From Methylophilaceae bacterium LSUCC0717 (GTDB lineage Bacteria > Pseudomonadota > Gammaproteobacteria > Burkholderiales > Methylophilaceae), in the NCBI GenBank assembly GCA_024919195.1, contig CP103436.1:434001-498000 (forward strand): 64,000 nt of DNA, written 5' to 3'. Both the position numbers and the translations under genes were made by a program. The notes below the pieces were generated by a model that searched no databases, was not told the origin of the DNA, and was given only the letters and a program-made list of their open reading frames with translations. Positions 21,757 to 27,023 of the stretch are shown one piece after another; within the stretch, counting starts at the first letter, position 1; every line of letters begins with the position of its first letter.

Positions 21757-22284
21757 TTACGAATCTTCGCCGATATCGTAAATCTCAATTTCGGTTTCCA
21801 TAATCTCACCGGTCACGCCATTGATTTCAACCTCAACTTCATGACCAATTTTTTCTGAGTAGATATCAAACTCGTATACAGGAAGATCGCCTTCAAACGC
21901 ATACTCTCTCTCGGTAACTTTCCCTGGAGTATTGTCTAGGGCAATTTTTTCAGCCTCTTCAGCTGAAATTTTTACTGCAGAGTTAAACTTCTTGTCATCC
22001 TTAGCAACCTCGACTTCTTCATCAGATAGTTCTGCTGTTGCAACATTACATTCGATTTCAAGCTCTTTGCCATCTTTGGTTTTAACATCAAACTCATATA
22101 CGGCTTGTCCATCTTCTACCTCACGCTCAAGCGAAACGATATGGCCTTCATATTTTTTGTGGACTGCGATAAAACATTTATCCAAGTCTGAGGTAAGAAC
22201 TTTTTTAATATCATCTTCTGTGTGCGCGGCAAATGTGTTCATAGTAAAACCTGCAACAGAAAGGGTTAAAATAATTTTTTTCAT
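21757..22284 (-). CDS. Secreted PepSY-domain protein
   Basis: A 175-residue exported protein with a signal peptide (MKKIILTLSVAGFTMNTFAA). The mature part holds two PepSY-like repeats: one around 'YEGHIVSLEREVEDGQAVYEFDVKT' and one around 'ISAEEAEKIALDNTPGKV' with 'EYAFEGDLPVYEFDIYS'. It is strongly acidic. PepSY domains occur in periplasmic sensors and protease modulators; function here is unknown. It is adjacent to a TonB-dependent receptor and a two-component system, and could be a partner, which is inference. Confidence 0.82.
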   Translation of the reverse strand: MKKIILTLSVAGFTMNTFAAHTEDDIKKVLTSDLDKCFIAVHKKYEGHIVSLEREVEDGQAVYEFDVKTKDGKELEIECNVATAELSDEEVEVAKDDKKFNSAVKISAEEAEKIALDNTPGKVTEREYAFEGDLPVYEFDIYSEKIGHEVEVEINGVTGEIMETEIEIYDIGEDS

Positions 22285-22516: not shown

Positions 22517-22591
22517 GGAAATATTCCCAAATGGCTAATAAATAGTAATTTCAGGAAAAATTCCTAAAGTTATTAAAAAAGGAAGATTTCC
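22517..22591. promoter_or_regulatory. Three GGAA-N3-TTCC operator-like sites
   Basis: Three 11-base inverted repeats with the same architecture: GGAAATATTCC (22517-22527), GGAAAAATTCC (22554-22564), GGAAGATTTCC (22581-22591). Start-to-start distances are 37 and 27 bases. They lie 62-136 bases before the TonB-receptor ATG, in a region without genes. The repeated symmetric form suggests binding by a dimeric regulator; the NarL-type regulator encoded downstream is a candidate, which is inference. Confidence 0.55.
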
Positions 22592-22652
22592 TATTGCACG
22601 GCATTAAACATCAGCTAAAATCATGGTTCATAAAATTTATTAAGTATTAGTT

Positions 22653-25079
22653 ATGAAGTTAAGATTATCATTATTAGGGTTGGTATCTGTGGCACTAACA
22701 GTAAATGCTGAAGATTTGCAGACGGGGAAAATTAATGTGTTTAGCCCAGGGCCATTACCATCCATTGGGATTTCAACCGATATTGTTCCTGGTTCAGTTC
22801 AGGTTATTAAACCAAAAGATGTGGAGCAACAAGCCGGTGTGTCACATGCTGACTATTTAATAAATAATACACAAGGTTTCTCTATCACAGAGGTTGGCGG
22901 AAACCCATGGCAACCTGATGTCCAGTTTAGAGGGTATTCAGCTGGGTCCATTTTAGGAAACCCAATTGGATTATCAATTTATGTTGATGGTGTTCGTGAA
23001 AACCAACCATTCAGTGATGTCATGTTATGGGATACGGTACCGATGTGGGCGATATCCGGCACTCAGGTGGTTGCAGGATCAAATCCAATATACGGTTTAA
23101 ATACTCTGGGTGGCGCGATTGCCTTCCAAACAAAGAACGGTAAAATTTTTAATAAAGGTCGAATTAGCGCAACTGCTGGATCATGGGATAGAACTTCTGG
23201 ACTTATAGAGTATGGCGGCGTTTTAGAAGGCTCTGATATTGATTACTATCTAGGTTATCAACACTCATCTGAAAATGGCTGGCGTGACTACTCACCATCT
23301 CACTTAAATCAAGCGTTTGGTAAGATCGGAAAAGATTTTGAGAATGGTCGTCTTGAGTTGAGTTATACGGGTGCGCACAACAATTTGACTGGTAATGGAT
23401 TAGCCCCAAAATATTTATTAGGCGCAGATAACTCCGGGGTGAATACCGTTCCTGATTTAACAGAAAACCGTTATAACAAATTCAACCTTGGGCTGACACA
23501 GTTTATTGATGAACAAACCATGTTTTCTGCGAATGCCTATTATGTTCAATCAAATCGTTACACTTTAAATGGTGATGCTGAAATATCATATGATGCAGGT
23601 GATGCCACTTACACAGACCTTGGTAGTGCTGTTTTTGAGGTCGAATATGGTGAATTAGAAACAGCAGGAGCTGAAGGTGAGGTTAATTTAACCAAAACTA
23701 AGCAAGATAAGTATGGTATCTCAGGTCAGTTTACATTCTCACAAGACTTGTTTGGTAAGCCAAATCATTTAGTAGTGGGCGCAAATGCTGAAACATCATT
23801 AATTTCATTTAATCAATTCGGAGTTGAGGAACAGACAATTTTGAGTTCCAGAAAAATTGCTTATGACAGCACCGCCGATCACGAAGAATCAACAAATTTA
23901 TCTGGCAGAACTAAAACGTTTGGCTTGTATGGCGTCAATACGTTATCGCTTAGTGAACAGTGGCATGTTACTGGTGGCGCGCGTTGGAATTACACAGAGG
24001 TTGATAATTCAGACAGACTGAATGGTGACTCAGCTACCAATACACTCACAGCAAAACAGAGCTGGTCTAGAATTAATCCAACCATCGGTTTAACTTATAA
24101 ACCAAGTGAGAACTATTCCACATACGTATCTTATAGTGAATCAAATAGAGCACCAACATCCATTGAGCTAGGTTGTTCAAATCCACAAGCAGCTTGCTTG
24201 CTTCCAACACAGATGGCTGACGATCCACCACTAGATGATGTGGTTTCAAAAACATATGAAGTCGGTGCTAGGGGAAGATTGACAGAAAATATTTCATGGA
24301 ATGCTGCCATTTATCATGCCATGAACCATGATGACATGATGTTCATCTCCACCAATGCAGTTAACGGTCTTGGCTATTTTGACAACATTGGACGTACTCA
24401 ACGTGACGGTCTTGATTTAGGCATATCAGGAAATAGGTTGCCACTGAATTTCTTGTCAGAATCAACTCAGAACAAAATTAGCTGGAATATGAATTACGGT
24501 TTAACTCATGCAACATATGATTCAGATCTCGAATTAACAGCAGAAGCAAATAGTTCTGCATCAGATTCTGATACATCTTATACATCGATCACTAGCGGTG
24601 AATTCTTCGATGAAGCAACAGCTGTCGGTGCTGCTGCTGTAGGAGCAACAGAATTGAGAGTTAATAATGATGTGATTCAGGTTAAAAAAGGTGATCAGTT
24701 AGCAAACATTCCAATGCATCGCCTAAAACTAAGACTGAACTATGACGTAACTGACAACTTCCGTATTGGGGGAAATGCAATCGGTTTTTCAAAAGCATGG
24801 GTAATGGGTAATGAAAACCAAAAACATGATGGTGACGGTGAAGTACCAGGTTATGTTCTTGTTAATCTCGATGCAGCCTACAAGCCTGCGCAGAATTGGA
24901 CGGTAGCTTTTAAAGCAATTAATATCTTTGACAAAAACTACTATACTGGAGGAAGGTTGATTGAGAATGCTTTCACAGGCGTTGGAAGTAACACGAGAAC
25001 TAATGCTTTCTCAGGCATTGGAGTGATGCCGGGATCACCTCAGGCGGCATGGTTAACAGTCACATATGACTTCAAATAA
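22653..25079 (+). CDS. TonB-dependent outer-membrane receptor
   Basis: An 808-residue TonB-dependent receptor. A signal peptide (to about residue 19) precedes a TonB-box-like segment 'GKINVFSPG'. The plug domain has 'DYLINNTQGFSITEVGG', 'PDVQFRGYSAGSILGNP' and 'NPIYGLNTLGGAIAFQTKNG'; the rest is a 22-strand barrel ending 'AAWLTVTYDFK'. Such receptors import siderophores, vitamins, metals or sugars using TonB energy. The ligand is not readable from sequence. Three operator-like repeats lie upstream and an intrinsic terminator follows; a histidine kinase and response regulator are next. Confidence 0.9.
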   Translation: MKLRLSLLGLVSVALTVNAEDLQTGKINVFSPGPLPSIGISTDIVPGSVQVIKPKDVEQQAGVSHADYLINNTQGFSITEVGGNPWQPDVQFRGYSAGSILGNPIGLSIYVDGVRENQPFSDVMLWDTVPMWAISGTQVVAGSNPIYGLNTLGGAIAFQTKNGKIFNKGRISATAGSWDRTSGLIEYGGVLEGSDIDYYLGYQHSSENGWRDYSPSHLNQAFGKIGKDFENGRLELSYTGAHNNLTGNGLAPKYLLGADNSGVNTVPDLTENRYNKFNLGLTQFIDEQTMFSANAYYVQSNRYTLNGDAEISYDAGDATYTDLGSAVFEVEYGELETAGAEGEVNLTKTKQDKYGISGQFTFSQDLFGKPNHLVVGANAETSLISFNQFGVEEQTILSSRKIAYDSTADHEESTNLSGRTKTFGLYGVNTLSLSEQWHVTGGARWNYTEVDNSDRLNGDSATNTLTAKQSWSRINPTIGLTYKPSENYSTYVSYSESNRAPTSIELGCSNPQAACLLPTQMADDPPLDDVVSKTYEVGARGRLTENISWNAAIYHAMNHDDMMFISTNAVNGLGYFDNIGRTQRDGLDLGISGNRLPLNFLSESTQNKISWNMNYGLTHATYDSDLELTAEANSSASDSDTSYTSITSGEFFDEATAVGAAAVGATELRVNNDVIQVKKGDQLANIPMHRLKLRLNYDVTDNFRIGGNAIGFSKAWVMGNENQKHDGDGEVPGYVLVNLDAAYKPAQNWTVAFKAINIFDKNYYTGGRLIENAFTGVGSNTRTNAFSGIGVMPGSPQAAWLTVTYDFK

Positions 25080-25104
25080 AAAAAGGGCGTTAGCCCTTTT
25101 TTTT
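25076..25104 (+). terminator. Intrinsic terminator after TonB receptor
   Basis: Stem AAAAGGGC (25081-25088) / GCCCTTTT (25093-25100) with loop GTTA and a T-run to 25104. It separates the receptor from the histidine kinase gene, which starts 22 bases later. Confidence 0.88.
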
Positions 25105-25125
25105 CGCCTAGAGTAAAATTAACTT

Positions 25126-26427
25126 ATGAGTCTTAAACTAAGATTAATCTTAATTGTTAACCTTCTTTTATTCATAGCCATTTTTATAGGTTTCTTTTCT
25201 GTCGTCTTTACCTCTAAAAATGCCGTTAGGTCTGAAATTGAATCTTCACTTAAGCTTGCGGAATTCTCTATAAAAACAGGCATTCAAAAAAATCCTGATC
25301 TATATCTTTTTCAAGATAATCTATTAGGTCTAAAAGATCTTGATCAGATTCGTCACTTATCTATTCAGTTGCTGGATAGTAATGGTAGTGTGATCGACGA
25401 AAATAAAAATTTAAATACCAAAGTCCATATTCCTGTTTGGTTTCAAAATGCATTAGATATTTACTCTAAAGATTTAAAAACCATGGACTTTCCCTTAATG
25501 CAGTTTGGTGATCAAATCGGTACCGTGAAAGTGATTCCCAATCCAATCTATGAGTATGATGAGATATGGCAGCAATTCAAAAATGGATTAATTATTGCAG
25601 TAATATTTTTTGTGTTTGTAAATTTATCCATCTTCTTTTTATTTGAAAAAATTATTTCCCCAATAAGCCAACTCATTCAGGGTTTTCGAAACTTAGAGCA
25701 AGGTAGTTATAAAAATAATAAAGAAAACTTTGGCATATCTGAATTAGATATTTTGAGAGTGAAATTAAATCAACTGACCGTAAAATTAAAAAAGAATGAT
25801 GAAAGAATTCATGAGCTGAACCAGAAATTAATTACCATTCAAGAACAAGAAAAAAAAGAAATTTCACGAGATTTGCATGATGAAATTGGACAGTCATTAG
25901 CAGCGATTCAGGTTCAGGCCGCCGCAATCAAGACATCCAAAAAACCAAATACTCAGGCAGATCTTATCATTAGCACCACGAAAGACTTGATGCAGCAAAC
26001 GCGTAATCTTATCAAGCGTCTGAGTTTAATTATTATTGATGACCTTGGCATTGAAGACGCGTTAGTTGATTTAATTAAAAATTGGTCACGAAGAACAGCA
26101 TGTAAAAATATCAATGTGAATATTGACTTACCAAACGCAAGGACATTTAAAACTCAATTGAATGAGACAGTGTACAGATTGACCCAAGAGGCGTTAACAA
26201 ATATTTCAAAACACTCTCGACCAAAGGAAGTATTGATTTCAATTCAGAGAAATGACAATGTGATTCTTTTAAGTTTCATGAATAACGGTATTTTAAAGAG
26301 AACAAAAAAAACAGATGGGATTGGAATGTTGGGTATGCAGGAAAGAGTAAAGAATTTGTCAGGGTCCTTTAAACAAAGCATACACAAAGGTTTTTATAAA
26401 GTTGACATAGGCTTGCCAATCAAATGA
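25126..26427 (+). CDS. Sensor histidine kinase, NarX/NreB-like (HisKA_3)
   Basis: A 433-residue membrane kinase. Transmembrane helices lie near residues 8-30 and 150-175, enclosing a ~120-residue periplasmic sensor domain, followed by a HAMP-like linker and coiled coil. Phospho-acceptor His251 is in 'EISRDLHDEIGQSLAA', the HisKA_3 signature. The HATPase domain has 'YRLTQEALTNISKHS' and 'GIGMLGMQERVK'. The stop overlaps the response regulator ATG (ATGA). Signal is unknown; adjacency to the TonB receptor suggests a link to import or envelope state (inference). Confidence 0.92.
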   Translation: MSLKLRLILIVNLLLFIAIFIGFFSVVFTSKNAVRSEIESSLKLAEFSIKTGIQKNPDLYLFQDNLLGLKDLDQIRHLSIQLLDSNGSVIDENKNLNTKVHIPVWFQNALDIYSKDLKTMDFPLMQFGDQIGTVKVIPNPIYEYDEIWQQFKNGLIIAVIFFVFVNLSIFFLFEKIISPISQLIQGFRNLEQGSYKNNKENFGISELDILRVKLNQLTVKLKKNDERIHELNQKLITIQEQEKKEISRDLHDEIGQSLAAIQVQAAAIKTSKKPNTQADLIISTTKDLMQQTRNLIKRLSLIIIDDLGIEDALVDLIKNWSRRTACKNINVNIDLPNARTFKTQLNETVYRLTQEALTNISKHSRPKEVLISIQRNDNVILLSFMNNGILKRTKKTDGIGMLGMQERVKNLSGSFKQSIHKGFYKVDIGLPIK

Positions 26428-27023
26428 AGAGCTTGCTTCTAGTAGATGATCATAAGATTGTGCGATCAGGCCTCAAAACCTTATTGTCTGATTTGAATTT
26501 TGACCAGATTGATGAGGCTGACTCTGGAAGAGTAGCCTATAGTTTAGCGCAAGAAAATTCTTACAGCTTGATTATTATGGATATCTCCATGGAGGGAATG
26601 AGCGGTTTAGATGCGCTGTCTAAAATTATTACCAGGATTCCAAAGCAAAAGATCTTAATTTTAAGCATGCATGACAGTGACTTAGTGATTGAAAAAGCAA
26701 AAAAATTGGGTGCGATGGGCTTTGTGACTAAATCAGATATTTCTGATAATTTATTTCAAGCTGTGGAGCAGATTCTTAATGGTCAGAATTTCTTTCCAGA
26801 AACAAAAGCTACTGACAATGAATTGAATCAACTTAATGAAAGAGAATTTGAAATTTTTAAAATGATTGCCTCTGGAAAGAGTATAAAAAATATTGCTACA
26901 GATATGAATATCAGTCAGAAAACGGTGGCTAACTATCAGACCAGTATTAAGCAAAAGTTAGAAATTGATAACCCGATTGAGTTTTACAAGCTAGCAGTTG
27001 AGTTAAATTTAATTAAATCCTAA
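26424..27023 (+). CDS. Response regulator, NarL/FixJ (LuxR-HTH) type
   Basis: A 199-residue regulator with an N-terminal receiver domain (LLVDDHKIVRSGL; phospho-acceptor Asp53 in 'IIMDISMEGMSGLDAL'; Lys in 'GFVTKSDIS') and a C-terminal LuxR-type HTH ('LNEREFEIFKMIASGKSIK', 'NISQKTVANYQTSIKQKL'). It is the cognate partner of the overlapping kinase gene. Candidate targets include the TonB receptor, whose upstream region holds three symmetric repeats. Confidence 0.93.
   Translation: MKSLLLVDDHKIVRSGLKTLLSDLNFDQIDEADSGRVAYSLAQENSYSLIIMDISMEGMSGLDALSKIITRIPKQKILILSMHDSDLVIEKAKKLGAMGFVTKSDISDNLFQAVEQILNGQNFFPETKATDNELNQLNEREFEIFKMIASGKSIKNIATDMNISQKTVANYQTSIKQKLEIDNPIEFYKLAVELNLIKS

Follow-up and report, generated by a model that had tools for sequence, protein, structure and literature searches.

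What does a TonB-dependent receptor encoded beside its own two-component system import, and does that system control its production? This question is raised by a locus within a 64-kb window (the whole stretch of DNA analysed) of a complete 1.27-Mb genome, the close relatives of which include the Methylophilaceae isolates LSUCC0401 and LSUCC0665. We take the host and these relatives to be OM43-type coastal methylotrophs. The receptor (808 aa; 22653..25079, forward strand) has the Pfam Plug and barrel domains and belongs to an XoxF-linked family. A gene for an acidic, lanpepsy-like periplasmic protein of 175 aa with two Pfam PepSY domains (21757..22284, reverse strand) diverges from it. A sensor histidine kinase with a LapD/MoxY periplasmic domain (25126..26427, forward) and a NarL/FixJ-type response regulator (26424..27023, forward) follow on the other side. 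The kinase has matches to PF16448 (LapD/MoxY; LapD_MoxY_N) and PF07730 (HisKA_3) above the cut-off and is, thus, of the MoxY/MxaY type, while the regulator contains both the receiver (Response_reg) and LuxR-type DNA-binding (GerE) domains of the NarL/FixJ family. The original prediction had this pair starting 47 bases after the receptor; the kinase ATG at 25126 lies 46 nt past the receptor stop, and the regulator and kinase genes overlap by 4 nt. An intrinsic-terminator-like hairpin (GGGC-GTTA-GCCC with A and T runs on either side; 25078..25103; folding energy of -14.2 kcal/mol), which the original prediction had not mentioned, lies between the receptor and kinase. It was not flagged by a simple terminator scan; similar hairpins were present at the same place in two related loci (L091 and L092). 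Since no palindrome precedes the pair itself and this hairpin intervenes, the pair is probably not simply co-transcribed or co-regulated with the receptor.

Upstream of the receptor, GGAANNNTTCC was matched exactly at 22517..22527 (TAGGAAATATTCCCA), 22554..22564 (CAGGAAAAATTCCTA), and 22581..22591 (AAGGAAGATTTCCTA), giving three GGAA-N3-TTCC palindromes within 75 bp, 60 to 140 bp before the receptor ATG. The only other exact palindrome in the window, at 1037, is within a gene, and shuffling gives an expectation of 1.3 per 64 kb. Among 2000 first-order Markov windows, two sites fell within 75 bp in one and three in none, and just 0.16% of base-shuffled copies of the intergenic region contained at least one site. 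The three sites of one architecture that had been described before the receptor ATG are, therefore, exact and form a cluster beyond chance. The whole genome contains 30 palindromes, mostly within genes, against 22 for a reversed-pattern control. The bare motif is not enriched genome-wide; the clustering is the special part. The few intergenic palindromes in the genome comprise the three before the receptor, one before a second TonB receptor, and others that look incidental; no good palindrome was found upstream of the xoxF gene of this genome. A genome-wide regulon based on relaxed matches (up to two mismatches) was rejected because these were no more common than in the reversed control (86 against 112), and the regulon search was consequently confined to exact-core sites. 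We noted a core palindrome identical to CAGGAAAAATTCCTA at genome position C1:425852 (L089:3853); a 72-aa DNA-binding-like gene begins 36 bp further on, and the palindrome is possibly an incidental, chance occurrence.

In an alignment of the receptor promoter with those of four near relatives, the three palindromes were the main conserved blocks. In four of the five sequences, the proximal palindrome is followed at a distance of exactly 24 nt by a TAAAAT-like element (22616..22621, forward strand), within a conserved TTAAAATC block. Taking this element as the -10 would put the centres of the palindromes near -106, -69, and -42 of the putative start, the last being a class-II activator position. 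A generic scan for sigma-70 promoters gave no complete match before the receptor, and there is no consensus -35; the promoter assignment is, thus, based on conservation. The absence of a consensus -35 is usual in activator-dependent promoters of LuxR/NarL-type regulators. Since the present promoter resembles these, we infer by analogy that the regulator would activate it.

We consider it probable that this streamlined, XoxF-dependent OM43-type methylotroph uses the unit for uptake across the outer membrane under local control, with lanthanides as the most likely substrate. The MoxY-type kinase would monitor the lanthanide status of the periplasm and phosphorylate the adjacent NarL-type regulator, dimers of which would bind the three palindromes at about -42, -69, and -106. 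The bound regulator would then control the receptor promoter, which lacks a good -35. The receptor would carry the metal, free or chelated, into the periplasm, where the divergently encoded lanpepsy-like protein could hold it for XoxF. We infer that the cargo of the receptor is also the signal of the kinase, which would make the circuit a closed one.

Several observations point to a lanthanide as the most likely ligand. The only PQQ alcohol dehydrogenase above the cut-off in this genome is an XoxF with DYDG (DYDGIN), and it is the only methanol dehydrogenase. The extra Asp of this motif (D-Y-D-G) marks lanthanide-type enzymes. In a 150-genome sample of the order, the receptor family was present in 21 of the 24 genomes with XoxF and in 13 of the other 125 (p = 7e-14); these 13, among the 34 receptor-bearing genomes, had no XoxF match at the threshold used. 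An XoxF with DYDG is encoded near the receptor in seven loci (L254, L255, L146, L167, L174, L180, and L189), and one of them (L254) has XoxF, the receptor, the PepSY protein, the regulator, and the kinase in a single cluster. The likely metal cargo is also suggested by the lanpepsy-like neighbour. Lanpepsy of Methylobacillus is induced by La and binds it (PMC11899968). The protein encoded here is secreted and approximately 19 kDa, with two PepSY domains and a mature pI of approximately 4.3, and it resembles lanpepsy (LanP) of Methylobacillus flagellatus in each of these features, in its periplasmic location, and in its length and C-terminal motif. It is 38–44% identical to PepSY proteins of Methylobacillus, Methylophilus, and Methylopumilus and matches the PDB 9vy3 series. 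However, it is only approximately 38% identical to the strain L1B protein, and its gene is divergent to the receptor here, which is not the case in L1B. La binding by the present protein is putative. The suggestion in the original prediction that the PepSY protein is a partner of the receptor gained support: the gene stands beside the receptor in close relatives of the genus, and lanpepsy-like genes adjoin the receptor family in OM43, Methylopumilus, Rhodocyclaceae, and other orders.

Known systems also provide parallels. MxaY, a LapD/MoxY-domain kinase of Methylotuvimicrobium, controls the lanthanide switch (PMC5018670, PMC6115532) and is active without La (PMC5018670). The present kinase shares the MoxY-type sensor domain of MxaY of M. 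buryatense, and the present regulator, similar to PedR2 of the PedS2/PedR2 system of Pseudomonas putida, is of the LuxR type. The known targets of MxaY and PedS2/PedR2 are methanol or alcohol dehydrogenase genes, whereas the candidate target here is the neighbouring receptor. By analogy with MxaY, the receptor may be induced under lanthanide scarcity, in contrast to the induction of lanpepsy by La in Methylobacillus. The kinases of GC-rich relatives often have no recognizable LapD/MoxY domain; therefore, the signal may differ among lineages. LanA and LutH, on which the lanthanide switch of other methylotrophs depends (PMC12482762), are similarly TonB receptors, the level at which their likeness to the present receptor is known.

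The main alternative, which we regard as unlikely although it leaves the circuit unchanged, is that the receptor imports PQQ, alone or complexed with a metal, as a divergent PqqU that recaptures the cofactor of XoxF. PqqU (YncD), the TonB-dependent PQQ importer of Escherichia coli, is the closest solved relative by profile and fold. Its chains were the top two hits in a profile search against solved structures (119 bits; the next was 81), and PqqU 9c4o was the top Foldseek match to the receptor model (E 5e-38; mean pLDDT 70), with other TonB receptors close behind. The residue equivalent to Q84 of PqqU is invariant in the receptor family, both are linked to PQQ-dependent metabolism, and pqq genes and genes for YncE-like beta-propellers (TIGR03866, PQQ-dependent catabolism-associated) adjoin receptors in several loci, as do xoxF and lanpepsy-like genes. 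PQQ-metal co-transport has been proposed for some PqqU homologues (PMC12124388), which we counted for this alternative. On the other hand, an aromatic residue at 99, R304, and R365 are the defining signature of PqqU (PMC12124388), and these positions are L101, S300, and F386 in the receptor by profile alignment to the PqqU/YncD chains and mostly L, S, and F across the family; an Arg lies two residues from the R304 position in approximately half of the family, and misalignment is possible there. Further differences from PqqU are an invariant Cys pair (C508 and C515) in the family, a long acidic insert in the OM43 receptors, and the local kinase/regulator pair. Moreover, the genome contains pqqC, and the host, thus, probably makes its own PQQ, while the lanpepsy-like neighbour points to metal.

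A circuit serving another metal chelate, of copper or iron, is less probable still. This genome has five TonB receptors, the second of which in the present context (L080/L114; genome C1:987148-989393) is Met/His-rich, related to copper receptors, and preceded by one palindrome approximately 70 bp upstream. Two of the closest relatives have this palindrome in exact form, which counts in favour of such a circuit. Against it, the palindrome has decayed or been lost in other relatives, where the comparison also shows the main receptor next to xoxF and lanpepsy-like genes in relatives.

Three further features of the receptor, which we favour as a lanthanide importer, were noted. The OM43 receptors carry an acidic insert of 55–104 residues (11–26 Asp/Glu and 1–4 Lys/Arg) that is mostly missing in other members of the family. 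In the present protein (P0001), it spans residues ~628–672 (window ~24534–24668) and forms a low-confidence loop in the model; it is possibly extracellular and metal-binding. A comparison of the same gene in L090–L093 and L153 revealed that the receptor is incongruent with its neighbours: relative to L092, flanking genes are 90–98% identical and the receptor 65%, whereas relative to L090, the receptor (83%) exceeds the PepSY protein (77%) and kinase (68%). This mismatch in identity suggests cassette-like exchange of receptor alleles, for which phages or the ligand may have provided the selection. In several lineages (L257, L258, L176, L178, L181, L194, and L195), the receptor has ExbB-like genes beside it, which suggests a dedicated energizing complex.

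Does the neighbouring pair own the palindromes? Receptor homologues were gathered from the family, order, and class and by a scan of named genomes; they represent best hits rather than a random sample, and motif counts are for loci with sufficient context. The exact palindrome was present in 34 of the 57 loci with an adjacent NarL-type kinase/regulator pair and in none of the 28 without it. Many of the 23 pair-bearing loci without the exact palindrome have a one-mismatch form, such as CGGGAGTTTTTCCCG. In a larger set with one-mismatch variants allowed, the numbers were 59/70 with the pair and 4/35 without it. Across 14 phylogenetically independent contrasts, the relaxed motif followed the pair in ~10 and opposed it in none (p ~0.002); the contrast was weaker for the exact motif (~6.8:1.5, median p 0.125). 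Most palindrome-bearing loci share the recognition helix KTVANYQ..I.QKL, while different helices (GTHLYNIKQKL) occur in the regulators of some loci that have the pair but not the palindrome. One locus (L109) has the palindrome and a regulator with a different recognition helix, and three class-level loci (L260, L262, and L263) have it with no pair nearby. In one close relative (G163), the kinase/regulator pair has been replaced (~42% identical, against up to 95% in other near relatives); its palindromes are gone, and its recognition helix is SPKTVANKLALIKEKM in place of SQKTVANYQTSIKQKL. The comparison with homologous receptors that the original prediction had called for, thus, showed the palindrome tracking the adjacent pair across lineages, and the proposal that the adjacent regulator controls the receptor was strengthened by these contrasts and by the loss in G163. 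We consider the adjacent NarL-type regulator to be the probable binder of the three palindromes, as judged from comparative sequence data. A cluster of 16 apparent conserved neighbours was discarded because it arose from reading the regulator gene on its antisense strand in GC-rich loci, and a link to the ebo operon, present in one locus only, was dropped.

Most of the receptor homologues without a NarL-type pair occupy the same chromosomal site, beside homologues of dnaE, accA, tilS, and purT (names taken from the proteins of the window). An NtrC-type regulator, the family membership of which was confirmed, is encoded in 26 of the 35 loci without the pair. A sigma-54 type -24/-12 element was predicted from this neighbouring gene and then searched for, and is, therefore, more than a post hoc pattern; it was found ~80 to 125 bp before the receptor in 22 of the 28 loci without the NarL-type pair and in 0/57 with it. 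The palindrome TGGTT-N6-AACCA emerged from an unbiased count of palindromes and occurs in 24/35 loci without the pair, but in none of the 70 with it. Orthologous receptors at one site appear from these loci to alternate between two unrelated local control systems, a local regulator swap. It is highly improbable that the palindromes serve some other, unlinked regulator, or are a repeat with no regulatory role, and lie next to the pair by coincidence: some loci do carry the palindrome where no pair is visible, but the association between motif and pair is strong, the motif is lost where the pair is replaced, and another operator and promoter are present where the NtrC-type system replaces it.

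More tentatively, and with some doubt, we propose for the whole XoxF-linked family that it is related to PqqU but differs in its ligand site, takes up lanthanides (possibly complexed with PQQ or a lanthanophore), and has interchangeable control modules for each copy: GGAA-N3-TTCC under the NarL-type pair, or a sigma-54 promoter and TGGTT-N6-AACCA under the NtrC-type regulator. The parts are of known kinds; in the limited open-access literature searched, we found no operator for a lanthanide receptor and no earlier description of the combination, namely, an XoxF-linked receptor under a NarL-type pair that has its own operator and is swapped for an NtrC/sigma-54 module.

If correct, this proposal would make the palindromes a first operator governing the uptake of lanthanides, and the locus would clearly illustrate how regulators can be exchanged as modules while the chromosomal site stays the same. 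The lanthanide-switch regulators known so far target dehydrogenase genes, and the present locus bears on how lanthanide uptake is sensed and rationed. It offers a short candidate operator together with a candidate kinase and regulator, and its receptor family may be traced across dozens of genomes. It also represents a natural experiment in regulator swapping, in which orthologous receptors at one chromosomal site appear under two unrelated control systems.
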